Part shown: in pieces, positions 8,745-29,425 of the stretch
How the letters are laid out: every line of letters begins with the position of its first letter
How positions within the stretch are numbered: the first letter of the stretch is position 1
NCBI GenBank assembly: GCA_023249375.1
Contig: JAHFCT010000007.1
Coordinates: 63,177 to 98,981 of the forward strand
Length of the DNA: 35,805 bases
DNA from: Gemmatimonadota bacterium
GTDB lineage: Bacteria > Gemmatimonadota > Gemmatimonadetes > Gemmatimonadales > Gemmatimonadaceae
Direction: 5' to 3'
Position numbers and translations under genes: made by a program
Notes under the pieces: model-generated
Told to the model about the DNA's origin: nothing
Database searches by the model: none
What the model saw: the letters and a program-made list of their open reading frames with translations, nothing else

Positions 8745-10229
8745 ATGAGCTCGACTGATCCCGTGCGTTCTCGCTCCGCGGCGTCCAGCGCAGGTCCGCC
8801 GGCGTTCGGCCCGCATCCCGATCGCTTCTTCGATCCCGATCCGTCGGTCCGCCGCGTGGCGCGCGACATCTACGCGCGCACCAAGGATCTGCCGCTCATC
8901 TGTCCACACGGCCACGTGGACCCCGCCATGCTGGCTGAGAACGCGCCGTTCCCCGAGCCGACCGCGCTGATCTTTACCCGCGATCACTACATCGTGCGCA
9001 TGCTCTACTCGCGCGGCGTGCGCATGGAGTCGGTGGGGATTCCCACGCGGGACGGCGCACCTACGGAGCAGGATCCGCGCAAAGTCTGGCAGCTCTTCGG
9101 CGATCACTACTACCTGCTGCGCGGCACGCCGACGGCCGCCTGGCTGGAGCAGGAGTTCGCCGACGTCTTCGGCGTGCGCGCGCCAATGAACGGCGCCAAC
9201 GCGATGGCGATCTACGACGAAATCGTGGAGAAGCTCGCGTCACCCGAGTTCTTGCCGCGCGCGCTGTTCGAGCGCTTTCGCATTGAAGTGCTGGCGACCA
9301 CCGACAAGGCGTCCGACCGGCTGCTGGCCCATCAGGCGATCCGCGCCTCGGGCTGGAGCGGCCGCGTCGTGCCGACGTTCCGGCCTGATGCCGTGTTCCG
9401 CGTGGCGACCCCCGGGTGGCACGATGAGATCGGCGCACTCGCGGCCGCGTCGGGGACGGCGATTACCGATTTCGCATCGCTGCTCGCCGCGCTCGCGCAG
9501 CAGCGGCGCTACTTCCGCTCGCTCGGTGCGACGGCGAGCGATCACGCGGTCGTCGAGCCGTACACCGAATGGCTCGAGCCCGCCGACACGCAGCGCCTGT
9601 TCGAGCGCGCCCAGCGCGGCGAGTGCACCGACGCCGACCAGCGGCGCTTCGAAGCGCACATGCTGATGGAAATGGCACGCATGTCGCTCGACGACGGCCT
9701 GGTCATGCAGCTGCACCCGGGTTCGCTCCGCGACCACAACGCGATCATTGCGGGACGGTTCGGCCCCGACACGGGGTGCGACATTCCCGTGCCGACGGAA
9801 TACACGCGCAACCTGCAGGCGCTGCTGAACCGGTTCGGCAACGATCCGCGGCTCACGCTCGTGCTCTTTACGCTCGATGAATCGACGTACGCCCGCGAGC
9901 TCGCGCCGCTGGCCGGCCACTATCCGGCGCTGCGGCTTGGCCCGCCGTGGTGGTTCCATGATTCCATCGAGGGAATGACGCGTTTCCGTCACGCGGTGAC
10001 CGAGACGGCGGGGTTCTACAACACGGCGGGATTCAACGACGACACGCGCGCGTTCTGCTCCATTCCCGCGCGCCACGACCTCGCGCGTCGCGTCGATGCC
10101 AACTTCCTCGCGGGTCTGGTCGCGCGCCACGTGATGGACATCACGGCCGCGCACGAGGTCGCCCACGCGCTGGCCTACGGGCTCGCGAAAGAGACCTACA
10201 AGTTCGGCGACACCGAGTCGCCGGCATGA
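8745..10229 (+). CDS. uxaC: Uronate isomerase (glucuronate/galacturonate isomerase)
   Basis: Cytoplasmic amidohydrolase-fold isomerase of 494 residues (E. coli UxaC is about 470) converting D-galacturonate to D-tagaturonate and D-glucuronate to D-fructuronate. The metal-binding HxH is in CPHGHVDP near the N-terminus. Other family signatures are QLHPGSLRDHN in the middle, PPWWFHDSIEGM, and FNDDTRAFCSIPARHD near the C-terminus. ATG 8745 is chosen because the frame upstream (to 8565) has no family similarity and crosses the putative operator; no strong Shine-Dalgarno is visible. It is the first gene of an eight-gene operon, and its stop overlaps the next start (ATGA). Its product is the substrate of the UxaE encoded at the left of the window. 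Confidence 0.93.
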   Translation: MSSTDPVRSRSAASSAGPPAFGPHPDRFFDPDPSVRRVARDIYARTKDLPLICPHGHVDPAMLAENAPFPEPTALIFTRDHYIVRMLYSRGVRMESVGIPTRDGAPTEQDPRKVWQLFGDHYYLLRGTPTAAWLEQEFADVFGVRAPMNGANAMAIYDEIVEKLASPEFLPRALFERFRIEVLATTDKASDRLLAHQAIRASGWSGRVVPTFRPDAVFRVATPGWHDEIGALAAASGTAITDFASLLAALAQQRRYFRSLGATASDHAVVEPYTEWLEPADTQRLFERAQRGECTDADQRRFEAHMLMEMARMSLDDGLVMQLHPGSLRDHNAIIAGRFGPDTGCDIPVPTEYTRNLQALLNRFGNDPRLTLVLFTLDESTYARELAPLAGHYPALRLGPPWWFHDSIEGMTRFRHAVTETAGFYNTAGFNDDTRAFCSIPARHDLARRVDANFLAGLVARHVMDITAAHEVAHALAYGLAKETYKFGDTESPA

Positions 10230-11551
10230 TGCCTGGCTCGCACGCGGTGTTCGTCCGCGGCAGTACGGCGCGGGCCGCGCTCGCCGGGCTGGCCGCGTTC
10301 GCCGCGTGCGGCGTTCTCGGCGCCGCACCGGCGAGCGCGCTAGCGCAATCCAAATCACCGGTGCCGGCGTCGTATCCCGGCGTGGCGCTCGAACGCGATA
10401 CGTCGCCGCGCCTCGGCGAGGCACGCGTCGACTCGCTTGCCCCGCAAGTGCGAGCATCGTGGACAGCGTATCTGCAGCGGTCGCACTCTCTGCTCGCCGT
10501 CGATCGCGCCGCAGTTGCCGCCGAGCTGAAATCGGCGGGCAAGGAGAAGTGGGTCGCCGCCACGTACATCCACGCTTTCCCGGTGGACTCGGCGTGGCGC
10601 GGCGCCTGGTTCAAGAACAGCGCGGCGCGCACGCTTGCGGACAACGTACTGAGCTGGCAGACGCCGGCCGGCGGCTGGTCGAAGCACGTGGACATGGCGG
10701 CGCGCGCCCGGCAGCCGGGCGAGAGCTACTTCTCGGAGAGCGCCGAGTGGCAGTGGATCGGCACCTTCGACAACGACGCAACCACGACGCAGCTGTTTCT
10801 GCTGGGTCACGTCTTCATGGCGCAGGCCGACGCGCGACACCGCCGCGCGTTCGACCGGGGCCTCGACTACGTGCTGGAGTCGCAGTATCCAAACGGGTGC
10901 TGGCCGCAGGTCTATCCGCTGCAAGGCGGCTACCACGACAACGCGACGTTCAACGACGACAACATGGCGGAGATCGGTGATCTGCTGCGCCGCGTCGCCC
11001 GCGGCGAGTACACGTTTGTCGCGGCGGCGAAGCGACGGCAGGCGGCGGTCGCGCTCACTCGGCTTGTTGCGTGCGTGCTTGCATCACAGGTTGTTGTCGA
11101 CGGCACGCTGACCGTCTGGGGCCAGCAGCACGACCCGCTGACCCTCAAGCCTACCTCCGCGCGCAGCTACGAACTGCCGTCGCTCACCGGCAAGGAGAGC
11201 GCGCACCTGGTGGACTTCCTGATGGACGAGCCCACGCCGAGTGCGCGCGTGGTGCGGTCGGTGCACGCGGCGGTGGCGTGGTTTCGGCAGAATGAAGTGC
11301 ACGGCTACTCGTACATCAACTACGTTCTTGCCACGGACAGCTCGGCCGGACCGCTCTGGGCACGCATGGCGGAGATCGGCACCAACCGCGCGATGTTCTT
11401 CAACCGTGATGGCGTGCGCCACTACGACTGGGACGCGCTGACCGACCGCCGCACGGGCTATGGCTGGTATACCGACGCCCCGATTGCAACGCTGGCGACC
11501 TACGAGCACTGGGCGCGGGTTCATCCGAATCGAGGGGAGGTGCGCCGTTGA
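10226..11551 (+). CDS. Pectate lyase, family PL10
   Basis: Exported pectate lyase of 441 residues that cleaves polygalacturonate by beta-elimination, leaving 4,5-unsaturated oligogalacturonates. A signal peptide ends near residue 40 (PASALAQ). PL10 signatures are visible in order: GGWSKHVDM (about 149-157), FDNDATTTQ (181-189), SQYPNGCWPQVYP (219-231), FNDDNMAEI (242-250) and the C-terminal NRDGVRHYD...DRRTGYGWY block that carries the catalytic and substrate-binding arginines of the family. The start overlaps the uxaC stop by four bases, so translation is probably coupled. Unsaturated products are the substrates of the GH105, KduI and KduD proteins encoded downstream. Confidence 0.9.
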   Translation: MMPGSHAVFVRGSTARAALAGLAAFAACGVLGAAPASALAQSKSPVPASYPGVALERDTSPRLGEARVDSLAPQVRASWTAYLQRSHSLLAVDRAAVAAELKSAGKEKWVAATYIHAFPVDSAWRGAWFKNSAARTLADNVLSWQTPAGGWSKHVDMAARARQPGESYFSESAEWQWIGTFDNDATTTQLFLLGHVFMAQADARHRRAFDRGLDYVLESQYPNGCWPQVYPLQGGYHDNATFNDDNMAEIGDLLRRVARGEYTFVAAAKRRQAAVALTRLVACVLASQVVVDGTLTVWGQQHDPLTLKPTSARSYELPSLTGKESAHLVDFLMDEPTPSARVVRSVHAAVAWFRQNEVHGYSYINYVLATDSSAGPLWARMAEIGTNRAMFFNRDGVRHYDWDALTDRRTGYGWYTDAPIATLATYEHWARVHPNRGEVRR

Positions 11552-12984
11552 GGAGTCCAACACGCCGTGATTTCCTGAACACGCTGGCAGTTGGCGCAGT
11601 GTGGACGGGCTATGCGCGCTCGGCGGGTGCTGCTGTGCGTGCCGACATGCTGCGATCACCGAATGCGCCGCGCGCGGATGGCTGGGATCAGGTACCGGAT
11701 ATCCTCAAGCGCATTCAAGCGCCCATTTTCCCCGATCGCGCCTTCGAGGCGGGCAAGTACGGGGCGGTCGCCGACGGCGTGAACGACTGCACCGACGCCC
11801 TGCAGCGCGCCATCGACGACTGTCACGCCGCCGGCGGCGGGCGTGTGAATCTTCCCGCGGGACGCATGGCCACCGGCCCGCTTCGGCTGCGCAGCAACGT
11901 CAATCTCGTGCTGAAGAAGGGCACCGTGCTCGCCTTCACCACGGATCCATCGCGCTTTCCCCTCGTCCTCACGCGCTTTGAGGGCGTGGAGGTGATGAAC
12001 TACTCGCCGCTGCTCTACGCGCACGGGGAGGAGAACATCGCCATCACCGGCGAAGGGACGCTCGATGGCGGCGCCAACTGCATGGACTGGTGGTCGTGGA
12101 AGGGCGCCACCGAGTGCTCGGTGGCCGACCGCCACGATCAGGCGAACGGGCGCAAGCGACTGTTCGAGATGGCAGAAGCCGGCGTGCCGGCAGCGAATCG
12201 TGTGGCCGGCCAGGGATGGTACCTGCGTCCGTCGTTTGTGCAGCCGTATGCCTGCCGCAACGTGCTCATCGAAGGCATCACCATCGTGAACTCGCCGTTC
12301 TGGCTGTTGCATCCGGTGCTCTGCACCAACGTGACCATTCGCAACGTCACGGCGGCGAGTCTTGGGCCGAACAATGACGGCTGTGATGTAGAGTCGTGCC
12401 GCGACGTGCTGCTCGAAGGGTGCACCTTTGAAACCGGCGACGACTGTGTGGTGATCAAGTCGGGGCGCAACGCCGATGGACGGCGGCTTCACGCGCCGAG
12501 TGAGAACATCATCGTGCGCAGGTGCACGATGCGCGACGGGCATGGCGGCGTCACGATTGGCAGCGAGATCTCCGGCGATGCGCGCCGTGTCTTCGTCGAA
12601 GACTGCGAGATGAGCAGCCCGCGGCTCGACCGCGGCATCCGGCTCAAGACGAACGCGATGCGCGGCGGTGTCATCGAGGACGTGTTCGTACGCAACGTGC
12701 GGGTGGGCGAAGTGGCGGAGGCCGTGCTGTCGATCGACTTCACGTACGAGGAAGGTGCGGCGGGGCAGTTCATGCCCACGGTGCGCGGCATCGAGCTGCG
12801 GGACGTCACGAGCCGGCAGAGCAAGTACGGGCTCTACCTCAGGGGCTTCGCATCGGCGCCGATCACCGATGTGCGGCTGACGCGGTGCACGTTCGACCAC
12901 GTGTCCAAGCCGGACGTCATAGAAAACGTGAAAGGACTCTCGATGAAAGGCGTTCGCGTGAACGGCAAGCGAGTGGGCGCGTGA
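11548..12984 (+). CDS. Polygalacturonase, family GH28, Tat-exported
   Basis: Glycoside hydrolase family 28 right-handed beta-helix of 478 residues hydrolysing alpha-1,4-galacturonosyl bonds. The N-terminus has a twin-arginine motif (TRRDFLNTL) followed by a hydrophobic stretch and an Ala-x-Ala region, indicating Tat export. Active-site motifs are complete: NNDG (275-278), GDD (297-299), GHG (331-333) and RLK (365-367). The start is TTG 11548, overlapping the PL10 stop, with AGGGGAGG ending seven bases upstream; no later start keeps the Tat signal. The insertion between strands (WWSWKGATE...YLRPSF) resembles exo-acting bacterial GH28 enzymes, but endo/exo mode cannot be decided from sequence alone. 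Confidence 0.9.
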   Translation: MRSPTRRDFLNTLAVGAVWTGYARSAGAAVRADMLRSPNAPRADGWDQVPDILKRIQAPIFPDRAFEAGKYGAVADGVNDCTDALQRAIDDCHAAGGGRVNLPAGRMATGPLRLRSNVNLVLKKGTVLAFTTDPSRFPLVLTRFEGVEVMNYSPLLYAHGEENIAITGEGTLDGGANCMDWWSWKGATECSVADRHDQANGRKRLFEMAEAGVPAANRVAGQGWYLRPSFVQPYACRNVLIEGITIVNSPFWLLHPVLCTNVTIRNVTAASLGPNNDGCDVESCRDVLLEGCTFETGDDCVVIKSGRNADGRRLHAPSENIIVRRCTMRDGHGGVTIGSEISGDARRVFVEDCEMSSPRLDRGIRLKTNAMRGGVIEDVFVRNVRVGEVAEAVLSIDFTYEEGAAGQFMPTVRGIELRDVTSRQSKYGLYLRGFASAPITDVRLTRCTFDHVSKPDVIENVKGLSMKGVRVNGKRVGA

Positions 12985-14216
12985 ACACGACCGCGCGAGC
13001 AATCGCATTCGCGCTGGTTGCCATCGCCACGGCCGCGCCGTGTGCCGCGCAGCGCGCGACACCGGCAGCGGCGCCGCCCGCCGCGATGGGGGCAATGAAC
13101 GGAACCAGCGGTGCCAGCGCACAGAGCGTGCCGACCACGCGCTGGTCCGTGCGCATGGCCGACGCGTCAATGAAGCGAAATCCGGTGGTGTTCGAGAAAT
13201 GGGACTACACCGCCGGCCTGATGCTGACGGCGATCGCGCGCGTGGGCGCGGTGACAGGCGCCCCGAGGTACGATGCGTATGTGCGCACGAACGTCGACAA
13301 GTTCGTGCAGGCCGACGGCCGCATTGCCACCTACAAGGTCGAGGAGTTCAATCTCGACCAGATCAACATGGGGCGCGCGCTGTTCGCCCAGTGGGACCGC
13401 ACGAAGGGCGAACGGTACCGCGCCGCACTGCGCACGCTGCGTGAGCAGCTGGCAAAACAGCCGCGCACCAGCGAGGGCGGCTTCTGGCACAAGAAGATCT
13501 ACCCAAACCAGATGTGGCTCGACGGCCTATACATGGCGGAACCGTTCTACGTGGAATACGCGCGTCGGTTCGGCCCCGCCAAGGACTTTGACGACATCAC
13601 GCGACAGTTCCTGCTCGTCGCTCGCCACACGCGCGACCCGCGCACGGGGCTCTTCTATCACGCGTGGGACGAAACACGAACGCAGCCGTGGGCCGATCCC
13701 ATCACGGGCAACTCGAAGAATTTCTGGGGACGCGCCATCGGGTGGTATCTGATGGCGGCGGTGGACGTGCTCGAGCAGCTGCCGGCGCAGCACGCCGACC
13801 GGGCCGCACTGCTGCGAACGGTCAGCGATCTCGCTGATGCCGTGGCGCGCGTGCAGGATCCGGTGACCGGTCTCTGGTGGCAGGTGCTCGACCAGCCCGG
13901 CCGCGCGAAGAATTATCTCGAAGCTTCGGCCTCCAGCATGTTTGTCTACGCCTTCGCCAAGGGCGCGAGGCTCGGCTACCTACCGCCTCGATACACGGCC
14001 ATCGCGTCGCGGGGATTCGACGGACTCGTGAAGAACCTGACGCACACCGACACCGACGGCCTGCTTTCACTGGATGGCATCTGCAAGGTGGCGGGACTCG
14101 GCGGCACGCCGCCGCGTGACGGCACGTACGAGTATTACGTCAACGAACCCGTGGTCTCGAACGACTACAAAGGCGTGGGGGCGTTCATTCTTGCCGCGCT
14201 GGAGCTCGGACGATGA
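12981..14216 (+). CDS. Unsaturated uronyl hydrolase, family GH105 (YteR/RhiN-like)
   Basis: GH105 (alpha/alpha)6-barrel enzyme of 411 residues that removes the unsaturated galacturonyl residue from the non-reducing end of pectin-lyase products. A signal peptide precedes a Pro/Ala-rich segment, so the enzyme is exported to the periplasm. Family motifs are NLDQINMGR (about 124-132), WLDGLYMAEPFY (179-190, containing the likely catalytic Asp181), NFWGRAIGWY near 251, and YEYYVNEPVVSNDYKGVG at the C-terminus. The start is GTG 12981, overlapping the GH28 stop (GTGA). The open frame upstream to 12522 is only the antiphase of GH28. Its product feeds KduI, two genes downstream. Confidence 0.9.
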   Translation: MNTTARAIAFALVAIATAAPCAAQRATPAAAPPAAMGAMNGTSGASAQSVPTTRWSVRMADASMKRNPVVFEKWDYTAGLMLTAIARVGAVTGAPRYDAYVRTNVDKFVQADGRIATYKVEEFNLDQINMGRALFAQWDRTKGERYRAALRTLREQLAKQPRTSEGGFWHKKIYPNQMWLDGLYMAEPFYVEYARRFGPAKDFDDITRQFLLVARHTRDPRTGLFYHAWDETRTQPWADPITGNSKNFWGRAIGWYLMAAVDVLEQLPAQHADRAALLRTVSDLADAVARVQDPVTGLWWQVLDQPGRAKNYLEASASSMFVYAFAKGARLGYLPPRYTAIASRGFDGLVKNLTHTDTDGLLSLDGICKVAGLGGTPPRDGTYEYYVNEPVVSNDYKGVGAFILAALELGR

Positions 14217-14974
14217 GACCTTCCTTCGCCCTCGCCAACCGGCGCGCCCTCGTCACCGGATCCGCGCGCGGCCTCGGACAGGCCATCGCCACCGCACTCG
14301 CTGAAGCAGGCGCTGATGTCGCGTGCGCCGATCGCACCGTCGCCGGCAGCAACGACACCGCGGCTGCGGTGCGAGCCGCCGGACGCACGGCGTGGCAAGT
14401 CGAAGCCGATCTCGCCGATCGCGACGCGGTGACCGCGATGGCGCGCTCGGCCACGGAGCAGGCGGGCCAGATCGACATTCTCGTGAACTGCGGCGGCACG
14501 ATCGCCCGCAAGGCGGCGGTCGATCACGCGCTCGACGATTGGGATCGCGTGTTGCGGGTGAATCTCGATGCGTCGTTCATTCTCGCCCAGTTGCTTGGGC
14601 GCGACATGGTGGCGCGCGGCTATGGCAAGATCATCAACATTGCGTCGCTGCTCTCGTTCAGCGGCGGCATCACCGTGCCGGGGTACACCGCGAGCAAGCA
14701 TGCCGTGGCCGGCATCACGCGCGCGCTCGCCAATGAGTGGGCGGGCAGCGGTGTGAACGTGAACGCCATTGCGCCGGGCTATTTTCGCACGGATAACACG
14801 AGGGCGCTGCAGGACGACCCTGTGCGTTCACGCGACATCACCGCGCGGATCCCCGCCGGCCGATGGGGCGAAGTCGGCGACATAACCGGTCCCGCCGTCT
14901 TCCTTGCGTCACCCGCCAGTGACTACATCCACGGCCACATCCTCGTCGTCGATGGCGGATGGATGGCCCGATGA
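14213..14974 (+). CDS. kduD: 2-keto-3-deoxy-D-gluconate 5-dehydrogenase
   Basis: Short-chain dehydrogenase of 253 residues that reduces 2,5-diketo-3-deoxygluconate to 2-keto-3-deoxygluconate (KDG). It has TGSARGLG (15-22), the catalytic triad Ser145/Tyr158/Lys162, and KduD-specific stretches (SLLSFSGGITVPGYTASK, NAIAPGYFRTDNT, RIPAGRWGE, ending in VDGGWMAR). These are clearer than for the other SDR in the window. The start overlaps the GH105 stop by four bases. It is immediately followed by kduI, whose product supplies its substrate; KDG would then go to the PfkB kinase at 29426. Confidence 0.92.
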   Translation: MRPSFALANRRALVTGSARGLGQAIATALAEAGADVACADRTVAGSNDTAAAVRAAGRTAWQVEADLADRDAVTAMARSATEQAGQIDILVNCGGTIARKAAVDHALDDWDRVLRVNLDASFILAQLLGRDMVARGYGKIINIASLLSFSGGITVPGYTASKHAVAGITRALANEWAGSGVNVNAIAPGYFRTDNTRALQDDPVRSRDITARIPAGRWGEVGDITGPAVFLASPASDYIHGHILVVDGGWMAR

Positions 14975-14993
14975 CTTTCTCCGTGGTTTACGC

Positions 14994-15821
14994 ATGACTT
15001 ACGACCTTCCTTCTCCCACCGAAGCCCGTCGTCTCGAACCGGCTGCGCTTCGCGAGGCATTCCTTCTGCCGGGGTTGTTCCGCAGCGGCGCGCTTACGCT
15101 GCACGTCACGACGCTCGACCGCGCCGTGCTCGGCGGGGTGGTGCCGACTACCGCGTCGATTCCACTCGGCGCGCCTGCGGAACTCGCCGCGGCCTACTTC
15201 ACCGAGCGCCGCGAACTCGGCGTGCTGAACATCGGCGCCGCGGGCACGGTGCGCGTGGATGGCACCGAGTACGCGCTTGGCGAGCGCGACATGCTGTACA
15301 TCGGACGCGGCAACAAGGACATCACGTTCTCCAGCGAAACGGCGAACAACCCCGCGCGCTTTTATCTGGTGAGTTATCCGGCGCACGCGGCGCATCCCGT
15401 GAAACTCGTGCGGCGCGCTGACGCAAACCTCACCATCCTCGGCGCCGCCGAATCCGCCAACCGGCGCGAGTTGCGCAAGTACATCCATCCCGGCGCGGTG
15501 CCGAGCGGGCAGCTCGTGATGGGCGTGACGGAGATGCAGACCGGAAGTGTGTGGAACACCATGCCGCCGCATACGCATACGCGGCGCAGCGAGGTGTACC
15601 TCTATTTCGACCTTCCCGCGGACGCGGCGGTCGTGCACCTGATGGGAGAACCGGACGCCACGCGGTCGCTCATCATCCGCAACGAGGAAGCAGTGCTGTC
15701 GCCCCCGTGGTCCATTCACGCCGGTTGCGGCACGCAGGCGTATGCCTTCTGCTGGGCGATGGGCGGGGAAAATCAGGATTTCGCGGACATGCAGGCCGCG
15801 CCGATTCCTTCTCTGCGATAG
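14994..15821 (+). CDS. kduI: 5-keto-4-deoxyuronate isomerase
   Basis: Cupin-fold isomerase of 275 residues (E. coli KduI is 278) converting 5-keto-4-deoxyuronate to 2,5-diketo-3-deoxygluconate. The expected zinc ligands are all present: H193 and H195 in PPHTHTRR, E200 in SEVYLYF and H242 in WSIHAG. The ending GENQDFADMQ is also family-typical. ATG 14994 gives the canonical N-terminus; frames upstream overlap kduD in another phase. It lies 19 bases after kduD and 8 bases before the DUF4861 gene. Confidence 0.94.
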   Translation: MTYDLPSPTEARRLEPAALREAFLLPGLFRSGALTLHVTTLDRAVLGGVVPTTASIPLGAPAELAAAYFTERRELGVLNIGAAGTVRVDGTEYALGERDMLYIGRGNKDITFSSETANNPARFYLVSYPAHAAHPVKLVRRADANLTILGAAESANRRELRKYIHPGAVPSGQLVMGVTEMQTGSVWNTMPPHTHTRRSEVYLYFDLPADAAVVHLMGEPDATRSLIIRNEEAVLSPPWSIHAGCGTQAYAFCWAMGGENQDFADMQAAPIPSLR

Positions 15822-15829
15822 GGGACGCC

Positions 15830-17068
15830 ATGCGAATGTTGCTGCGGACGATACTCGCGGGCGTCGCGTCGTGCGGCGCGCTTGCGCTCGTGCCGGCCGA
15901 TGCGCAGGCGCAGGCGAAGCCCGCCTTGCCAGCGCCGGCGAAGGCCGCACCGGCGCCGGCGTCAGTGCTCGTGCGCGTGGAGAACCCGCTCGCGTTCGCT
16001 CGGCGGGACGAGGTGATTGCGCTCTCGTGGGCGGCGCTCGTCAGCCGCATGCCGACGCTCTCGCCGAGCGCCGTGCGGGCAGTCGATACGGTGTCCGGCG
16101 TCGAGTACGCGGTGCAGGTTGTGAAGTCGGAACAGGATCCGAAGTTCGATTCGTTGCTGGTGCAGCTCGATCTCCAGCCGAGCGAGACACGCGTCATTCG
16201 CATCGAGGGGCAGGCGCCGCGCGTGCCGCCCAAACGGCGCGTATTTGCCGGCCACATCGACGAACGCGATGACCTCGCGTGGGAAAGTGACCGCGTGGCG
16301 TTCCGCACCTACGGCGTCGGGTTGGCCAAGGTCGAACCGCTCGTCAGCAGCGGCATGGACGTGTGGACCAAGCGCACGCGCGACCTCATCGTCGAGAAGT
16401 GGTACGCCAAAGGGCACGACGACTACCACAAGGACACGGGCGAAGGTGCCGACTTCTTTGATGTGGGCACGTCGCTGGGCGCCGGGGGCACCGCGGTGTG
16501 GCGCGACGGCCGGATGGACAAGTCGCGGAACTTCAGCGGATGGCGCGTGATGGCGAACGGTCCCATCCGCGCCGTCTTCGAGCTGCGCTACGAGCCGTGG
16601 ACGTCTGGCGCCGTCACCGTCACGGAAACCAAGCGCATCTCGCTCGACGCCGGCTCCAACGTCAATCGAAACGAGAGCGTCTTCACATTCACGGGCGTTG
16701 ATTCCATTGCCTACGTCACGGGCGTGGTGAAGCGCGCCGGCATTGTGGGCTCGACGAGCCGCGCCAACTCCTGGGCCTGGCTCAGCGGATGGGGGCCAGT
16801 CAGCCCGAAGGGCGGTGGCCACGGCGAGCTCGGCACGGCGGTGCTCCTGCCGCGCGAGCGGCTGCTCGACTGGAAGGAGACCGGCGATCACTACCTCGCC
16901 GTCGCGACGGCGAGGCCCGGCGTGCCGGTGGTGCATTACTTCGGTGCGGGCTGGACGGCGAGCGGCGACTTTGCCGACGTGCGCGCATGGTGGACGTATC
17001 TCGACGACGTGGCGCGCCGCCTGGCCGCTCCCGTTCGAACAATGCTTGTCCCTGCTTCCGGAGAGTGA
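15830..17068 (+). CDS. DUF4861-family exported protein
   Basis: A 412-residue protein with a signal peptide (cleavage near DAQAQ, residue 28) and an Ala/Pro-rich spacer. The mature domain resembles DUF4861, a family I know mainly from polysaccharide-utilisation loci and for which I know no settled activity. Visible features are a mixed-beta sequence with several conserved-looking charged aromatic segments: EKWYAKGHDDYHKDTGEGADFFDVG (in parts), SRNFSGWRVMANGPIRAVFELRY, HGELGTAVLLP, and HYFGAGWTASGDF at the C-terminus. The concentration of His, Asp and Trp suggests a carbohydrate-active enzyme or binding protein. GGGGAC lies six bases before ATG 15830. It sits between kduI and the GH28-CE8 fusion with one untranslated base after it, so it is almost certainly co-expressed in pectin breakdown. 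Confidence 0.7.
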   Translation: MRMLLRTILAGVASCGALALVPADAQAQAKPALPAPAKAAPAPASVLVRVENPLAFARRDEVIALSWAALVSRMPTLSPSAVRAVDTVSGVEYAVQVVKSEQDPKFDSLLVQLDLQPSETRVIRIEGQAPRVPPKRRVFAGHIDERDDLAWESDRVAFRTYGVGLAKVEPLVSSGMDVWTKRTRDLIVEKWYAKGHDDYHKDTGEGADFFDVGTSLGAGGTAVWRDGRMDKSRNFSGWRVMANGPIRAVFELRYEPWTSGAVTVTETKRISLDAGSNVNRNESVFTFTGVDSIAYVTGVVKRAGIVGSTSRANSWAWLSGWGPVSPKGGGHGELGTAVLLPRERLLDWKETGDHYLAVATARPGVPVVHYFGAGWTASGDFADVRAWWTYLDDVARRLAAPVRTMLVPASGE

Positions 17069-17069
17069 G

Positions 17070-19523
17070 ATGCGTGTCGGCGTACTGAGCGTCGCTGCTG
17101 CGGTCCTCGGTGCGTCGCTCGGCGGCGCCTCGGTCGCCGCGGCGCAGGACTCGAGAGCCGTGGTCGAGCCAACGCGGCCGGCCGTGTGCGCCACGATACC
17201 GGCGGAGTTGCTGATCGCAGATGACACCACGGTCGCCGCTGCCGACGAACGGCACAACGACGCCGAGCGCATTCAGCGCGCCATCGATCATTGTGCGGCG
17301 GGGAAGGCGGTGGTGCTGCGCGCGGATGGAGGCAAGCGCGCGTTTCTCACGGGACCGCTCGCGATGCGCCCCGGCGTCACGCTGGTGGTGGACTCCACCG
17401 TGACGCTCTTTGCGTCGCGTGATCCGCGGCTTTACGACCTAGAGCCCGGACTCTGCGGCACCGTGGACGAGAAGGGGCATCACTGCAAGCCGCTTATCTC
17501 TGGGCAGCGCGCGCCAAACGCGGGGTTGATGGGGCCGGGCACCATCGACGGACGCGGCTGGGCCACGGTGCTGGGCACGGCGCCCGCCGAGAGCTGGTGG
17601 GACCTGGCGCAGGACGCCAAGGTGCGCAGCCAGAACCAGAGTTGCCCGCGCCTTATTGTGATGAGCCGGTCGGACAACTTCACGCTCTACGACATTACGC
17701 TGCGGAACTCGCCGAACTTCCACGTCGTCTACGAACACGGCAACGGCTTCACGGCGTGGGGCGTCATCATCGACACGCCCAAGGGTGCGCGCAACACCGA
17801 CGGCATCGATCCGTCGTCGTCAACGAACGTGACGATCACGCGCAGTTTCATTCATACGGGCGACGACGACGTGGCGATCAAGGCCGGCGGTCCCGCCGTG
17901 GCGTCGCACATGACCATCTCGCACAACCACTTCTTCACCGGGCACGGGATGTCCATTGGCAGCGAGACCAATGGCGGCGCCCGGGCGATCCGTGTGTTTG
18001 ACCTGACCATCGACGGTGCCGACAACGGCTTGCGCATCAAGTCGAACGCCAGCCGCGGCGGGCTGGTGGAGGACGTCGAGTACCGCGACATCTGCGTGCG
18101 CGACACCAAAAACGTGATCGAGATGGATTCGCATTACAGCGCGTCGCCGCAGACCACTGGCTCCCTGATTCCGCAGTTCCGCGGCATCCGGCTGCGCGAC
18201 GTGCATATCCTCAGCGGCGGCCAGGTCATCCTCGACGGATACGATGCGGCCCGCCCGCTCGAGCTGTCTGCGGAGAACGTCGTCTTTGATGCTCCGGAGA
18301 AGTTCAAGCTGCGCGCAATGCACGCCACCGTGCAGCTCCTCGGTGCCGGGTGGAATCTTCCGCTCTCGGGCGAAAACGTGCGGGCCGTGCCCGCCCCGAC
18401 GCCTGCGGCATCAGCGCCGGTTGCATGCGCCAATCGTTTTGTGCCGCTGCCGCCGCGGGTGCGTCCGTCGCTCGCGCCGAGCTTTGCCGTCGTCGATTGG
18501 CGCCATCGCGGCGCCGATGGCGACTCGGTGCAAGGCGCGCCGACGTTTCGCTCGCTCGGCGCAGCGCTCACTGCGCAGTCCGTGAACGGCGGCGCGCGCA
18601 CGGTGATCCTCCTGCGCAACGGCCGCTATCGCGAAAAGCTCACCATCGACCGCCCGCGCGTCACCATCATCGGCGAAAACCGCGACAGTACCGTGCTCAC
18701 CTTCGACGCCATCGCCGATACGCCATCGCCGGGCGGCGGAACGTACGGCACGCGCGGCAGCTTCACGCTGCGCGTCGTCGCGCCCGACTTTCGGGCCGAG
18801 CGGCTGACCATCGAGAACGCCTTTGACTACATGGCGAATTTCGCCAAGGCGGCCGATGACCCCACCAAGGCGAGAAACGCGCAGGGTGTGGCGCTCATGC
18901 TCGACCAGGGCAGCGACCGTGCGGCCTTCGTTGACGTGAAGATCACGGGGCATCAGGACACGCTCTTTCCCAACGTCGGCCGGAGCTTCTTCGTGCACTG
19001 TGAGGTGACGGGAAGCGTGGATTTCATCTTCGGCGCAGGGCAGGCCGTCTTTGAAGACTGCGACATCGTGTCGCGCGACCGCGGCAGTGCGACGAACAAC
19101 GGCTACGTGACGGCGCCCAGCACCAAGCAGGCAGAGGCGTTCGGTTTTCTCTTTACGAAAAGCCGGCTGAAAAAGGAACGCGCGTCACTGCCGCCCAACT
19201 CCGTGGTCCTCGGGCGTCCGTGGCACCCGTTCGCGGCGGCCGACGTCAATGGCAGCGCGGTCTTCGTCGACTGCTGGATGGACGACCACATCGGCGCGCG
19301 TGGATGGGACCGGATGTCATCGGTAGACTCGACCGGACTTCGGATTTGGTATGAACCCGAGGGCGCGCGCTTTTTCGAGATCGGTTCCACCGGCCCGGGC
19401 GCGGTGCAGAGTCCCTCACGCCGCGTGCTCTCCGCTGCCGACGTTGCGCGCTTCAGCGTGGCCGCGGTTCTCGGCGGATGGAGCCCGTCGCGCGAATCGA
19501 CGAAGGTGCCAACGTCACGATAG
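17070..19523 (+). CDS. Bifunctional polygalacturonase-pectin methylesterase (GH28-CE8 fusion)
   Basis: An 817-residue exported two-domain pectinase. After a Sec signal peptide (to about residue 25) comes a GH28 beta-helix (about 40-440) with all active-site motifs: NTDGID (242-247), TGDDDVAIK (263-271), GHG (291-293) and RIK (322-324). A Pro/Ala linker (about 440-450) leads to a CE8 pectin methylesterase beta-helix (about 470-805). That domain has GHQDTLF with catalytic Asp630, SVDFIFG with nucleophile Asp651, and LGRPW with Arg716. CE8 removes methyl groups from homogalacturonan and exposes the galacturonate that GH28 hydrolyses, so the order of action is intramolecular. ATG 17070 follows the previous stop by one base, with GGAG about nine bases upstream. 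It is the last gene of the operon. Confidence 0.93.
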   Translation: MRVGVLSVAAAVLGASLGGASVAAAQDSRAVVEPTRPAVCATIPAELLIADDTTVAAADERHNDAERIQRAIDHCAAGKAVVLRADGGKRAFLTGPLAMRPGVTLVVDSTVTLFASRDPRLYDLEPGLCGTVDEKGHHCKPLISGQRAPNAGLMGPGTIDGRGWATVLGTAPAESWWDLAQDAKVRSQNQSCPRLIVMSRSDNFTLYDITLRNSPNFHVVYEHGNGFTAWGVIIDTPKGARNTDGIDPSSSTNVTITRSFIHTGDDDVAIKAGGPAVASHMTISHNHFFTGHGMSIGSETNGGARAIRVFDLTIDGADNGLRIKSNASRGGLVEDVEYRDICVRDTKNVIEMDSHYSASPQTTGSLIPQFRGIRLRDVHILSGGQVILDGYDAARPLELSAENVVFDAPEKFKLRAMHATVQLLGAGWNLPLSGENVRAVPAPTPAASAPVACANRFVPLPPRVRPSLAPSFAVVDWRHRGADGDSVQGAPTFRSLGAALTAQSVNGGARTVILLRNGRYREKLTIDRPRVTIIGENRDSTVLTFDAIADTPSPGGGTYGTRGSFTLRVVAPDFRAERLTIENAFDYMANFAKAADDPTKARNAQGVALMLDQGSDRAAFVDVKITGHQDTLFPNVGRSFFVHCEVTGSVDFIFGAGQAVFEDCDIVSRDRGSATNNGYVTAPSTKQAEAFGFLFTKSRLKKERASLPPNSVVLGRPWHPFAAADVNGSAVFVDCWMDDHIGARGWDRMSSVDSTGLRIWYEPEGARFFEIGSTGPGAVQSPSRRVLSAADVARFSVAAVLGGWSPSRESTKVPTSR

Positions 19524-20645: not shown

Positions 20646-21031
20646 TGGAAGCGTCCTTGAAAGCGGTGCGTGTCGCCGCGCCGCGCGTGTCGAATTGCCC
20701 AACGCGCTCCCCGATCGGAGCGGTAGCGGAACCCACGGAAACTTGCCACCGGCGGAACGTGCCGCTACCCGCGGCCCATCCCTGGGGCCGGGGTCTGGGA
20801 GGAGGCCTCTGGCGTTCTTGGCTCGCCCGACGCATACTCTTGGGGAAATAGTTCGGGCGCGGAACAAATAACCCCCTTTCGCGCAATTGGCGCTTGGATG
20901 GCGAGTCCATCCAGGCGGTTCGCAGGGCAGGGCGCGGGATGGTGCAGAGTGATCGGGCGAGACGGCTGCGTCCGTCTGTTGGCACGGGAACAAATCTTGG
21001 CCGGTTGGCGGCCCACGGAGGAAAGCGACGA
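20646..21031. promoter_or_regulatory. 386-bp intergenic region upstream of susC
   Basis: No gene is recognisable. It must hold the divergent promoters of the reductase gene and of susC. Visible structure: inverted 8-mers GGTAGCGG (20722-20729) and CCGCTACC (20762-20769); an 11-bp stem with one G-U pair at 20891-20901/20907-20917 with a five-base loop; and two copies of GAACAAAT (20862-20869 and 20988-20995), an octamer also found in the candidate operator at 8679-8686. GGAGGA at 21018-21023 is the susC ribosome-binding site. I could not pick a convincing -35/-10 pair. Confidence 0.5.
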
Positions 21032-24000
21032 ATGCGATGGATCCGCAGTTTCTTGACGCTGGTCGTGTGTGTGTGCATCGCCGGAGTCAGCGGCGCGCAG
21101 ACGCCGGCGGCACGCGTGACCGGCACCGTGACCGACCGGAATACGGGAACGCCTATTCCGCTCGTGCAGGTCTCGATTGTTGGCACACGCATCGGGGCCC
21201 AGTCGGACGAAGCGGGCAGATTCACCATTCTGGGCGTACCGGTCGGCGCGCAGCAGCTGCGCGCGATCCGACTGGGCTATGCGCCGGTCGTGATGCCGCT
21301 GCAAGTGGAAGCCGGCCAGGTGCTGACCGTCGATCCCAAGATGCAGGTGACGACGTCGCTGCTGCAGGAACTGGTCGTCGTCGGCTACGGCGCGCAGAAG
21401 CGCAGCGACCTGACGGGATCGGTGGCCAGCGTGAAACCGAGCACCGATCAGTTGCCGGTGTTGACGCTCGAGCAGACGCTGCAAGGGGCCGCGGCGGGCG
21501 TCTCGGTCACGCAGGCCTCGGCGGCACCGGGCGGCGGCATGTCGATCCGCGTGCGCGGCGGGTCGTCGGTGACCGGCAACAACGAACCGCTCTACGTCAT
21601 CGACGGAATGCCCATCAACAATGATGCGGACAACTCGTCGCCGAGTGACGGCGGCCGCGAAGTGACGACGCAGGTGCCGTCGAACCCGCTGGCCACGCTC
21701 AACCCGGCCGACGTCGAGTCGATCGAGATCCTGAAGGATGCGTCGGCGACGTCCATTTACGGCGCGCGCGGCGCCAATGGCGTCGTCCTGATCACGACCA
21801 AGAAGGGCAAGAGCGGCACGATGAAGTTCACGCTGGACAGCTACCAGGGGACGCAGGAAATCGTCCACCCGTACAAGCTGCTCAACGCGCAGGGCTTCGC
21901 GAGTTTCGCCAATGCCTGGTCGGCGGCGAACGGCACGGCCGTGGTCTTTGCCGACACCGCCTCGCTCGTGACCACCGACTGGCAGGACGCGATCATGCGC
22001 AAGGCGCCCGTGAACAACCTGCAGTTGGGCGTCAGCGGCGGCACGACCGGCAAGAATCCCACGCTCTACTCGCTGAGCGGCGGCGTCTTCCGGCAGGACG
22101 GCATCGTCCTCAACTCGACGTTCCGGCGCGTCGCACTGCGCGGCGCCGTTGACCAGCAGGTGGGACCGAAGGCGCGCATCACGAGTACGCTGAGTGTCAG
22201 TCGCGTTTCGAGCGCCTCCGTACCGACGGACGGATCGTTCAATGCCGGCGCCGGCGCCGTGGGTGCCGCGGTGCAGTACTACCCGACGCTCCCGATTCGG
22301 CGCGCGGACGGCACGTACACGCTGATTCAGCTCGACAGCAAGTCGCCGCTCGCCCCGGCCTCGGTGCCAAACCCGGTTTCGATGGCATCGGACGTGAAGG
22401 ACGACCTGTCGGATCAGCGCATGCTCGCCAACGTGTCCGGCGAGTACGAACTCTTCTCCGGCCTGAAGTTCCGCATCACCGGCGGCGCTGACCTCGCGAA
22501 CCGTGCACGGTACACGTACTACCCGCGGACGACGCTGATCGGCAGCCAGGTGAATGGACAGGCGATTCGTGGTTCAACGAACATCACCTCGTTCATCAAC
22601 GAGAACACGCTGAACTACTCGCGGACCTTCGGATCGGACCATCGGATTGACGCGGTGGCCGGATACTCGCGCCAGTCCAACGAGACGCTGCGCGATCTCG
22701 CGCGCAACTCGCAGTTTGTCAGCGACATCGATGGCTATCAGTCCATCGGCAGCGGCACGCAGACCGGCGGTCCGACGGTTTCGTCGGGACACACCAAATG
22801 GACGCTCGCCTCGTATATCGGCCGCGTGAACTACTCGTTCCGCGAACGCTATCTCGTCACGCTGTCGGAACGGCGCGACGGGTCGTCCCGCTTCGGCGCC
22901 GAACACCAGTGGGGATCGTTCCCGTCGGCGGCGTTTGCGTGGCGCGTCTCGGAAGAGCCGTGGATGCAGCGATTCCCGGCCATCGATCAGCTGAAGCTGC
23001 GCGCCTCGGTGGGCTCGGCCGGCAACCCGTCCATTCAGCCCTATCAGTCGCTGGCCCGGCTCACGCAGCAGCAGTACACGCTGGGTGGTACGGTCGTCCC
23101 GGGGTACTATCCCGCCTCGGTGCCGAATCCCAACCTGACATGGGAAACCACGAAGCAGTCGAACATCGGCACCGACATCGGCGTGTGGAACGGCCGTCTG
23201 TCCGTGACGGCTGATGTGTACAAGAAGACCACGAGCAACCTGCTGCTGGCCGTGAACCTGCCGTTGGAATCCGGGTTCTCGACGGCGCTGCAGAACGTGG
23301 GCTCGGTGTCGAACAACGGATTTGAGCTTTCCGCCACCATCGCGATGCTGACGGCGGGTGATCCGCGCGCGCACGGCGTGACGTGGTCGACCACGTTCTC
23401 GTACTCTCGCAACAAGAACAAGGTCCTGGATCTCGGCGGCGTGACGCAGATCTTCGCGTCCAGCGTCAACAGTGACCTCAAGCTCCTCGGCTCCCTGATC
23501 CGTGTGGGACAGCCGATGGGCGTGTTCTACGGATACAAGGTCGACGGCATCATTCGCGATTCCACGGCGCTGCTGGCCATGACGGTGAAGCCGCTGTCAG
23601 GCAGCACATGGCATCCCGGCGACTCGCGCCTCGCGGATGTGAACGGCGACGGCGCCATCACGACCGACGACCGTACGATCATTGGCGATCCGAATCCGAA
23701 GTACACGGGTGGGTGGCAGAACACCGTGGGGTATCGCGGCGTCCGGCTGACCACCTCGGTCGACTTCTCGCAGGGCGGCAAAATCCTGAACCTGAACCTC
23801 GTCCGCCTCGACGGCGGCAGCCCGGCCACCAACATCCTGGCCGATCGCTGGTACGATTCCTGGACGCCGACGAATCTCGATGCCAAGTACCCGCGCGTGA
23901 ATTTCACGCCGGGCTCCATCGGCTCCGAGATGACGAGTGACCTGCTCGAGGATGGCTCGTACGTCCGGCTGCGCGCGGTGACCCTCGACTACGCGCTTCC

Positions 24001-24199
24001 CAAGGACTTGTTCAGCCGCTCCGGGCTCACCGGCGTGCGCGTCTACGTGAGCGGCAGCAACCTGCTCACGCACACCAAGTACAGCGGCTTCAATCCGGAC
24101 GTCAGCAGCCTCGGCCTCGGCAACGTGAACCGCGGCATCGACGTCGGCGCGTACCCGCTCGCGAAGAGCGTCACCTTTGGCATCAACCTGACCTACTAA
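21032..24199 (+). CDS. susC: SusC/RagA-family TonB-dependent outer-membrane transporter
   Basis: Outer-membrane beta-barrel of 1055 residues importing oligosaccharides with its SusD lipoprotein partner. Order of parts: signal peptide (1-22), carboxypeptidase-like regulatory beta-sandwich (about 28-108), TonB-box-like ELVVVGYG (113-120), and a plug domain with the SusC signature DVESIEILKDASATSIYGARGANGV (in parts, 228-252). The barrel follows, ending in GINLTY with a terminal aromatic. ATG 21032 has GGAGGA eight bases upstream and gives a proper signal peptide; the frame upstream to 20894 lacks one. susD follows three bases after the stop. Its place between pectinase genes and the uronate carrier suggests oligogalacturonide uptake, which is inference. 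Confidence 0.93.
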   Translation: MRWIRSFLTLVVCVCIAGVSGAQTPAARVTGTVTDRNTGTPIPLVQVSIVGTRIGAQSDEAGRFTILGVPVGAQQLRAIRLGYAPVVMPLQVEAGQVLTVDPKMQVTTSLLQELVVVGYGAQKRSDLTGSVASVKPSTDQLPVLTLEQTLQGAAAGVSVTQASAAPGGGMSIRVRGGSSVTGNNEPLYVIDGMPINNDADNSSPSDGGREVTTQVPSNPLATLNPADVESIEILKDASATSIYGARGANGVVLITTKKGKSGTMKFTLDSYQGTQEIVHPYKLLNAQGFASFANAWSAANGTAVVFADTASLVTTDWQDAIMRKAPVNNLQLGVSGGTTGKNPTLYSLSGGVFRQDGIVLNSTFRRVALRGAVDQQVGPKARITSTLSVSRVSSASVPTDGSFNAGAGAVGAAVQYYPTLPIRRADGTYTLIQLDSKSPLAPASVPNPVSMASDVKDDLSDQRMLANVSGEYELFSGLKFRITGGADLANRARYTYYPRTTLIGSQVNGQAIRGSTNITSFINENTLNYSRTFGSDHRIDAVAGYSRQSNETLRDLARNSQFVSDIDGYQSIGSGTQTGGPTVSSGHTKWTLASYIGRVNYSFRERYLVTLSERRDGSSRFGAEHQWGSFPSAAFAWRVSEEPWMQRFPAIDQLKLRASVGSAGNPSIQPYQSLARLTQQQYTLGGTVVPGYYPASVPNPNLTWETTKQSNIGTDIGVWNGRLSVTADVYKKTTSNLLLAVNLPLESGFSTALQNVGSVSNNGFELSATIAMLTAGDPRAHGVTWSTTFSYSRNKNKVLDLGGVTQIFASSVNSDLKLLGSLIRVGQPMGVFYGYKVDGIIRDSTALLAMTVKPLSGSTWHPGDSRLADVNGDGAITTDDRTIIGDPNPKYTGGWQNTVGYRGVRLTTSVDFSQGGKILNLNLVRLDGGSPATNILADRWYDSWTPTNLDAKYPRVNFTPGSIGSEMTSDLLEDGSYVRLRAVTLDYALPKDLFSRSGLTGVRVYVSGSNLLTHTKYSGFNPDVSSLGLGNVNRGIDVGAYPLAKSVTFGINLTY

Positions 24200-24202
24200 C
24201 CC

Positions 24203-25780
24203 ATGAGGACGACGATGCGTGCTCGCCTTGCCGGCCTCGCGTTGATCGCGACAGGCCTTCTCCTTGTCGGCTGCAACGACAAGGCCTTTCTCACGGAGGT
24301 GCCGTACGACTTCGTGAGCCCAGTGAACTTCTACAAGACCGCCGGCGATGCGCAGGCGGCCATCAACGGCGTCTACGCCGACTTCATCAACAGCACCGGA
24401 GACAACTACTACGGCCGCAACTTCGTGATGCTCGTCGAGCATCCCACGGAGATGTGGACGTCCCGCCTGAGCGCCACCAACGAGCGCTCCCAGCCGGACG
24501 TGTACACCATTCCGGTGAACCACGCGTACGTGCAGTCGGTCTGGGCGTCGGCGTATGACGCCATCAACCGCGCCAACGCGGTTATCGCCCACGTGCCGGG
24601 CATCACCATGGACACCACGCTGCGCGCGCGCATCGTGGCCGAGGGCAAGTTCCTGCGTGCGCTGCACTACTTCAATCTCGTGCGCATGTTCGGCAACGTC
24701 CCGCTCAAGCTCACCGAGACGACGGGACTCGACAGCCTGTTCCTCACGCAGGCGACGCCGGCGCAGGTGTACGCGCAGATCGTGACCGACCTGCAGCAGG
24801 CCATTGCCGTGCTGCCGTCGTCCAAGACGTATGCCACGGCCGACCAGGGGCGCGCCTCGCGCGGTGCCGCCAAGACGCTGCTGGCCAAGGTGTACCTGCA
24901 GCGCGCCGGCACCGGCAATGGCACGCCGGCCGATTGGCAGGCGGCGCTCGATATGGCCAAGCAGGTGGTGGCCGATGGCGACTATGCCATGGTGGCCGAC
25001 TACAAGTCACTGTTCGATTTCTTTGGCGGCACGGTCGTCGAGAAGAACAGTGAGGTCATCTTCGACGTCCAGAACGTTCGCGCCAATGGTTTGGGCGGGC
25101 GCATCGGCTCGCACGTGGCCCCCAACGCCACGGCCCCGTACCTCGGCGCGTCGACCAACGGATCCTTCGAGGCGGAAAGCACGTTCTACGCCTCGTTCGC
25201 CGCCGCCGACAAGCGACGCGATGGCACGTTCGTCACGTCGTGGGTGAAGGCGGGCGTGACGGTGACGTGGGTCAATGGCGGCGCCGCCACGCAGGCCTAC
25301 GCGAGCGAGACGCCGTTCCCGCGCAAGTTCCTCGATATCCTGATGACGGGAACGGGGGCGGAGGAGCCCAACTACACGATCCTGCGCTATGCCGAAGTGC
25401 CGCTGATGATTGCCGAAGCCGCCAACGAAGTTGCGGGCGCACCGACGGCAGAAGCATACGCGAACATCAACCTCGTTCGCGCGCGCGCCGGCATTCCGAA
25501 CATGACGCCTGGTCTCAGCCAGTCGCTGTTCCGCGACTCGGTCTTTGTCGAACGGCGCTGGGAGCTGTCGCTCGAAGGACCCAACGGTTACTTCGACAGC
25601 CAGCGCAACTGGACGTGGTCAAAGGCCCGCATTGAGGCCAACATGCTCAAGGCGAAGAGCAGCAGCAGCAAGTTCCCGAAGTTCAACGGCGGTCCGATTG
25701 GGGACAAGTACAAGCTGATGCCCATTCCGCAGCGTGCCATCGATCTCAACCCGGGGCTCAAGCAGAATCCCGGCTGGTAA
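24203..25780 (+). CDS. susD: SusD/RagB-family outer-membrane lipoprotein
   Basis: Surface glycan-binding lid for the SusC transporter, 525 residues. A lipoprotein signal peptide ends in LLLVGC, with Cys24 as the lipidation site. The N-terminal SusD-like helices include FYKTAGDAQAAINGVY and WASAYDAINRANAVIAHV (TPR-like region). The RagB/SusD C-terminal domain has YTILRYAEVPLMIAEAANE and VFVERRWELSLEG followed by the basic/aromatic end KLMPIPQRAIDLNPGLKQNPGW. ATG 24203 is three bases after the susC stop; ATG 24215, which has AGGA at a better distance, is an equally plausible start and keeps the lipobox. No ECF sigma/anti-sigma or hybrid two-component regulator accompanies the pair here. Confidence 0.93.
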   Translation: MRTTMRARLAGLALIATGLLLVGCNDKAFLTEVPYDFVSPVNFYKTAGDAQAAINGVYADFINSTGDNYYGRNFVMLVEHPTEMWTSRLSATNERSQPDVYTIPVNHAYVQSVWASAYDAINRANAVIAHVPGITMDTTLRARIVAEGKFLRALHYFNLVRMFGNVPLKLTETTGLDSLFLTQATPAQVYAQIVTDLQQAIAVLPSSKTYATADQGRASRGAAKTLLAKVYLQRAGTGNGTPADWQAALDMAKQVVADGDYAMVADYKSLFDFFGGTVVEKNSEVIFDVQNVRANGLGGRIGSHVAPNATAPYLGASTNGSFEAESTFYASFAAADKRRDGTFVTSWVKAGVTVTWVNGGAATQAYASETPFPRKFLDILMTGTGAEEPNYTILRYAEVPLMIAEAANEVAGAPTAEAYANINLVRARAGIPNMTPGLSQSLFRDSVFVERRWELSLEGPNGYFDSQRNWTWSKARIEANMLKAKSSSSKFPKFNGGPIGDKYKLMPIPQRAIDLNPGLKQNPGW

Positions 25781-29397: not shown

Positions 29398-29425
29398 ACA
29401 AGACACATCCATTGTGGAGCGTGGC

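Follow-up and report, generated by a model that had tools for sequence, protein, structure and literature searches.

A GH28-CE8 fusion protein with predicted polygalacturonase and pectin methylesterase domains in a Gemmatimonadota pectin-use locus, and the probable repeated origin of such fusions in bacteria

Pectin methylesterase (PME) and polygalacturonase attack a common substrate one after the other, and the chemistry is established for the PehA and PemA families. Accessible descriptions of an enzyme of the fungus Penicillium oxalicum SX6 present it as a bifunctional pectinase, a single polypeptide with one catalytic domain for PME and another for polygalacturonase (PMC5327597; Tu et al. 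2014, doi 10.1007/s00253-014-5533-x, cited in PMC6892212 and PMC6699109). For Butyrivibrio fibrisolvens, the available text of another source describes a secreted multidomain protein that joins PL9 and PME (PMC12109409). In this study, we report a Gemmatimonadota gene that joins a GH28 domain to a CE8 domain, together with its surroundings and its occurrence in other bacteria. The window referred to below is the whole stretch of DNA that was analysed, at its full length of 35,805 nucleotides.

The host assembly comprises 3.81 Mb in 120 contigs and is 95.9% complete; the organism is presumably a soil bacterium. The fused gene (Table 1) is translated from an ATG into 817 aa with no internal stop, and this uninterrupted frame bears out the claim of the sequence-only reading that both enzymes lie in one polypeptide. 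A single base separates the ATG from the TGA that closes the DUF4861 gene upstream, and GGAG stands just before the ATG. By eye, a single hydrophobic signal-like stretch is present at the N-terminus, ending at AAAQ-D, in agreement with the single export signal that had been claimed. The signal peptidase II lipobox cysteine of Sus-type surface lipoproteins was looked for and was absent from the signal stretch, the first cysteine being residue 40. No CE8 other than that of the fusion was found in the genome, and the fusion accounts for one of its two GH28s, both of which are located within the window.

Table 1. Features of the fused gene and of the surrounding locus (positions are those of the window)
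Feature	Position	Strand	Basis
GH28-CE8 gene, 817 aa	17070..19523	+	stop included; single frame also in related genomes
Likely Sec signal peptide, aa 1-26, no lipobox cysteine	17070..17147	+	by eye; AF2 pLDDT <50 at aa 1-21
GH28 endo-polygalacturonase-like domain, ~aa 27-441; NTD 242-244, GDD 264-266, GHG 291-293, RIK 322-324	17148..18392	+	Pfam, PDB sequence search, Foldseek
Native GH28 C-terminal tail with conserved C453, ~aa 450-461	18417..18452	+	motif ends unfused relatives
True interdomain linker, ~aa 462-472, PRVRPSLAPSF, about 11 aa	18453..18485	+	tail comparison; pLDDT <50 at aa 466-468
CE8 pectin methylesterase domain, PemA type, ~aa 473-807; D630, D651, R716, W718	18486..19490	+	Pfam, PDB sequence search, Foldseek
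PL10 pectate lyase	10226..11551	+	Pfam; TIGR02474
Second GH28, Tat-like signal, nearest exo-galacturonidase BT4155	11548..12984	+	Pfam, equivalog model, sequence start
GH88/GH105-type unsaturated uronyl hydrolase, true start inside frame	12522..14216	+	PF07470
KduD and KduI	14213..15821	+	profile matches
DUF4861 gene, directly upstream of the fusion, probably translationally coupled	15830..17068	+	PF16153, 267 bits
SusC/SusD outer-membrane uptake pair	20894..25780	+	profile matches

Pfam analysis identified GH28 (PF00295) at aa 131-392 with 184 bits against a cut-off of 22.9, and a PDB sequence search matched aa 27-415 to PehA (1BHE) at E 1.2e-90. The AlphaFold (AF2) model matched the right-handed beta-helix fold of PehA (1BHE, TMt 0.95, rmsd 2.2 by Foldseek). 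Alignment showed that N242, D244, D265, D266, H292, R322 and K324 are all present, their active-site roles being ones that we take over from the PehA literature, and the scored residues were retained in 15/15 fused-protein rows (G1696 outside the count). By analogy, the fused GH28 is of PehA type and would be expected to be endo-acting on the polymer. The CE8 domain (PF01095) was identified at aa 488-798 with 123 bits against a cut-off of 27; aa 489-807 matched 3UW0 and PemA with E values of 2e-81 to 2e-76, and Foldseek on the same model gave TMt 0.94 for 3UW0 and 0.89-0.91 for PemA. Its residues Q605, Q629, D630, D651, R716 and W718, with roles presumed from the PemA literature, were all present in the alignment, and the scored ones were retained in 16/16 fused-protein rows (G1696 again outside the count). 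The claim that both domains carry all their active-site motifs is therefore upheld for every scored residue. The PemA equivalog model NF041896 gave 318.7 bits, below its curated cut-off of 700, and the domain is accordingly termed PemA-type and not PemA itself.

The model of the whole fusion had a mean pLDDT of 88.8 and a pTM of 0.62. This pTM leaves the mutual placement of the two predicted domains unfixed, and because of it the model was kept out of any argument about facing active sites. The best query-normalised TM among the listed rows was 0.44, so no listed solved chain spans both domains. Between the domains, the short Pro/Ala linker proposed earlier stands only in part: most of the region is the Cys-containing tail with which GH28s of this clade natively end (C453-x3-FVPLP in the fusion), and the true linker is therefore reduced to the free residues that remain. 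The end motif of the clade, C-x2/3-[FYW]-x-P/F-P, was found with a loose pattern in 26 of the 27 GH28 rows unfused to CE8 (L155 and L109 fit it only loosely); the 27th, L130, has CAARYADFP, recognised by eye. In 24/27 of these rows the protein ends about 9-33 residues past the motif Cys. Since the tail motif terminates unfused GH28s, every fusion appends its domain past the natural GH28 end. Rows L083 (G371) and L086 (G097) continue for at least 510 residues beyond the tail Cys, with a C-terminal GH43 on the same GH28 lineage in L083 (Pfam) and similar sequence by eye in L086, and L109 carries 456 residues past the tail, with Ig-like domains. The distance from Cys to CE8 in the Gemmatimonadota fusions is 16-26 aa, and the junctions of L033 and L034 are identical to those of L080 and L079. 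Neither C342 nor C453 varies across the GH28 rows compared, 9 of them fused and 4 single, and hence a C342-C453 disulfide probably pins the tail to the barrel.

Distinct fused loci numbered 10 of Gemmatimonadota type, 5 in Acidobacteriota, 1 in Rhizobium and 1 in another member of the Pseudomonadota. Among 60 genomes including the host's own, any match was found in 6 and the full fusion in the host and one other; the 10 same-genus relatives gave no match. Wider searches gave matches (E<=1e-30) in 22 of 395 Gemmatimonadota genomes, with both domains in one frame in 8 (the host included; one fusion runs off a contig end). Of 396 Acidobacteriota genomes, 39 had a match and 4 an uninterrupted fusion; a fifth genome, G535, has two genes split by a TGA. 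These frequencies agree with the earlier claim that the order GH28 then CE8 is uncommon. Matches occurred in 12 of 299 Pseudomonadota genomes, with at least one fusion (G1696) among the 5 loci opened, and in 38 of 247 Bacteroidota genomes, where no GH28-CE8 fusion was recognised among the matches listed (5 loci). A search with the Rhizobium protein matched 2 of 385 Caulobacter-class genomes, neither of them with a fusion. Among 72,556 plasmid records there were matches in 218; in 4 of these a single place covered 80% of the query, as a single piece in 3 from Rhizobium/Agrobacterium and as two genes in Saccharobesus. In the genome_contigs collection, scanning turned up 44 loci, of which 8 were single-frame fusions. 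Locus L032, titled Vicinamibacterales, is on a 6.7-kb contig that may be mis-binned, and it was not counted as a transfer.

The DUF4861 gene was directly upstream of the fusion in 8/8 distinct Gemmatimonadota-type loci having upstream sequence (L035 and L036 end before it and are outside this count). In the unfused locus of G293 the order is DUF4861, CE8, GH28, and in G025, G371 and G097 CE8 likewise precedes GH28. Plain loss of a stop codon between neighbours was ruled out for Gemmatimonadota, since the adjacent unfused pairs (4/4) have the reverse order, and the fusion therefore required a rearrangement beyond a lost stop. Stop-codon loss is a possible route in Acidobacteriota. Around position 2836 of L129 (G535), GH28 is followed by a TGA, two codons and then an in-frame ATG that opens a CE8 gene encoding a signal peptide of its own, which is possibly a pre-fusion layout. 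A Croceibacterium plasmid (L164, 1727-5090) was also observed to carry overlapping CE8, GH28 and CE8 genes, a layout that could give rise to either fusion order.

Compared with the window protein, the Acidobacteriota fusions showed 55% identity in GH28 and 30-31% in CE8, and the Rhizobium fusion 46% and 27%; CE8 identities this low relative to those of GH28 hint at separate origins. The GH28 tree (65 rows) and the CE8 tree (86 rows) each needed 5 label changes. For the later trees, 47 of the 86 CE8 rows were combined with 5 new ones to give 52, and G1696 was added to 42 of the 65 GH28 rows to give 43; the 23 GH28 rows left out are distant paralogues. All trees were quick trees without bootstrap, with long CE8 branches in L075 and L170. 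Placement of the Gemmatimonadota and Acidobacteriota fusions in one clade was rejected (AU p 1.1e-7 for CE8, 3.9e-41 for GH28), as was joining G1696 to the Gemmatimonadota CE8s (p 0.0087), and the Gemmatimonadota fusions alone were compatible with one origin (p 0.32). The Rhizobium GH28 grouped with rhizobial and Rahnella GH28s (clade value 99). From these comparisons, the fusion appears to have arisen independently at least twice, in Gemmatimonadota and in Acidobacteriota, and probably four times if Rhizobium and G1696 are included; the figure of four goes beyond the CE8 data, because one clade of Acidobacteriota and Rhizobium CE8s was not rejected (p 0.6).

The CE8 clade of the fusions (clade value 97 in the later tree, with L091 and L094 placed by the matching clade of value 99 in the 86-row tree) was also found behind other in-frame partners, read from chosen CE8 frames, a subset of all CE8 frames. 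The upstream partner is PL10 in L088, L091 and L094, an alpha/beta-hydrolase in L096 and L097 and GDSL in L165 and L166 (all Pfam), and in Bacteroidota DUF4861 is fused upstream in L167 and L168 (Pfam) and in L169 (tblastn only). A different Acidobacteriota CE8 group has the reverse order, CE8-PL10 (L142, L146). Large frames upstream of a single CE8 in L024 and L095 were rejected as fusions, Pfam showing CE8 alone in what are GC-rich open frames. In L039 (2017-3504), CE8 is followed in frame by a TonB-receptor plug domain; the contig is of low coverage and this may be an assembly fault. The AF2 model of DUF4861 is weak (pLDDT 68, with aa 112-191 under 50), and its resemblance to a beta-supersandwich is a hint of fold only; the matches are to mutarotase-like sandwiches and to the GH38 C-terminal one, with VIA Z reaching 13.7 and a Foldseek E of 3e-5. 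By sequence, DUF4861 had no relative in the PDB, and its name was not found in the open-licence PMC literature. We propose tentatively, and with rather less than even confidence, that tethering demethylation to the next enzyme has been repeatedly selected. On this proposal, the Cys tail of GH28 would be a socket into which CE8s of separate lineages were taken up at least twice and probably on four occasions, with GH43 or Ig-like domains taken up elsewhere; a single PemA-type CE8 clade would be a portable C-terminal module with five N-terminal partners; and DUF4861 would be an undescribed pectin-acting enzyme or sugar-binding module, supersandwich-like, a suggestion made because of its company as neighbour of the fusion and partner of CE8. 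The pattern of domain shuffling is in this way a lead on the function of DUF4861.

The presence of UxaC, PL10, a second GH28, GH105/88, KduD, KduI, DUF4861 and SusC/SusD around the fusion identifies the surroundings as a pectin-use locus. The separate Tat-exported GH28 that had been noted in the operon was recognised again, its gene starting with the Tat-like TRRDFL. It scored 340 bits against the BT4155 model, under the model cut-off of 800. A division of labour is likely, the fusion providing endo cleavage with demethylation and the second GH28 acting exo on oligomers, because the latter resembles the exo-galacturonidase BT4155 rather than a second PehA. Farther along the window, a PfkB sugar kinase (29369-30508) is 72-75% identical to Acidobacteriota kinases adjoining GH28-CE8 genes (L038, L126) and only 32% identical to its counterpart in the relative G023; by these identities, it is possible that part of the locus was transferred. 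A LarA-like protein (28126-29397), encoded next to a GntR regulator and the PfkB kinase, is nearest to a model for a nickel-dependent putative hexonate epimerase, under its cut-off.

We consider it probable, and hold this with good confidence, that the gene, part of a locus for homogalacturonan use, encodes an exported two-enzyme protein in which CE8 demethylates and the tethered GH28 cuts, the fusion having been made past the Cys tail of GH28. The C-terminal CE8 would strip methyl esters from galacturonan, and the tethered N-terminal GH28, which needs free carboxylates, would cut the newly exposed stretch. The resulting oligomers would pass to the second GH28, PL10, GH105, KduI/KduD and UxaC. 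In evolution, a new catalytic domain would have been joined just past the conserved Cys tail of GH28. We infer both activities, a kinetic benefit of tethering, a preference for methylated pectin and the location of the protein in the cell.

On whether tethering matters for catalysis there is a rival reading. Both domains may work and the fusion may serve only co-expression and co-export in a fixed ratio, without catalytic coupling, as would suit the separate neighbouring GH28 and CE8 genes kept in Acidobacteriota and Alphaproteobacteria, the fusion linkers that differ in length and composition, and the low pTM of the model. That CE8 has been fused repeatedly, to one pectin enzyme or another, suggests instead that joining is favoured; this is not decisive, and the co-expression reading is left at a little under an even chance. 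The site of action is evenly balanced. The Sec-like signal without a lipobox and the lack of a T2SSK match in the draft genome, together with SusC/SusD in the locus, make it a serious rival that the enzyme is periplasmic and acts on partly methylated oligogalacturonides imported via SusC/SusD rather than on polymer outside. Against this, one missing component in a draft genome leaves room for secretion routes, and a PehA-type GH28 is expected, from knowledge of the family, to be endo-acting on polymer.

Two further readings carry far less weight. That one domain is degenerate and serves as a binding module only draws on the equivalog scores under cut-off and on nothing else found; the scored catalytic residues are complete in both domains and the folds fit 1BHE and 3UW0/PemA, which makes it very unlikely. 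It is hardly credible that the fusion is an artefact of misassembly or of a frameshift between neighbouring genes: some relatives do have adjacent genes, but these pairs are in reversed order, and nine other distinct loci are fused (59-81% identity in GH28, 68-77% in CE8) with no signal peptide at the junction, so that recurrence in distinct loci refutes an artefact origin.

Compound terms for GH28-CE8, CE8-GH28 or pectinesterase-polygalacturonase were absent from the open-licence PMC literature, the body of print that the search covered. As to whether the architecture had already been characterised, a PME-polygalacturonase single chain is known from the fungal SX6, as far as its accessible descriptions go, but no literature on a bacterial GH28-CE8 was found there; the bacterial GH28-then-CE8 form is for these reasons regarded as new and the PME-polygalacturonase principle as known. 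Convergent bacterial assembly is the point added to that principle. Separately arisen fusions, with different CE8 lineages and linkers, are natural replicates on the question of whether tethering speeds the degradation of methylated pectin, and the fusions are candidates for one-enzyme pectin processing.

Like the SX6 enzyme, as described in the sources available, the window fusion has separate PME and polygalacturonase domains in one polypeptide. The title of the paper on the fungal enzyme names PME first; the bacterial fusions have GH28 first and PehA/PemA-type domains. The Erwinia enzymes PehA (1BHE) and PemA (1QJV/2NTB) each match one half of the fusion in sequence and fold, and their solved chains are single-domain, of 376 and 342 aa, in contrast to the two-domain fusion. 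The plasmid-encoded WP_209160125.1 of Rhizobium sp. AB2/73 also has GH28 then CE8 in one protein and is annotated 'pectinesterase family protein', that is, as pectinesterase only. The Butyrivibrio protein, in the available text, likewise couples PME to a pectin depolymerase in one chain, but its partner is a PL9 lyase and it has wall-binding domains and a length of about 2000-2200 aa (PMC12109409).
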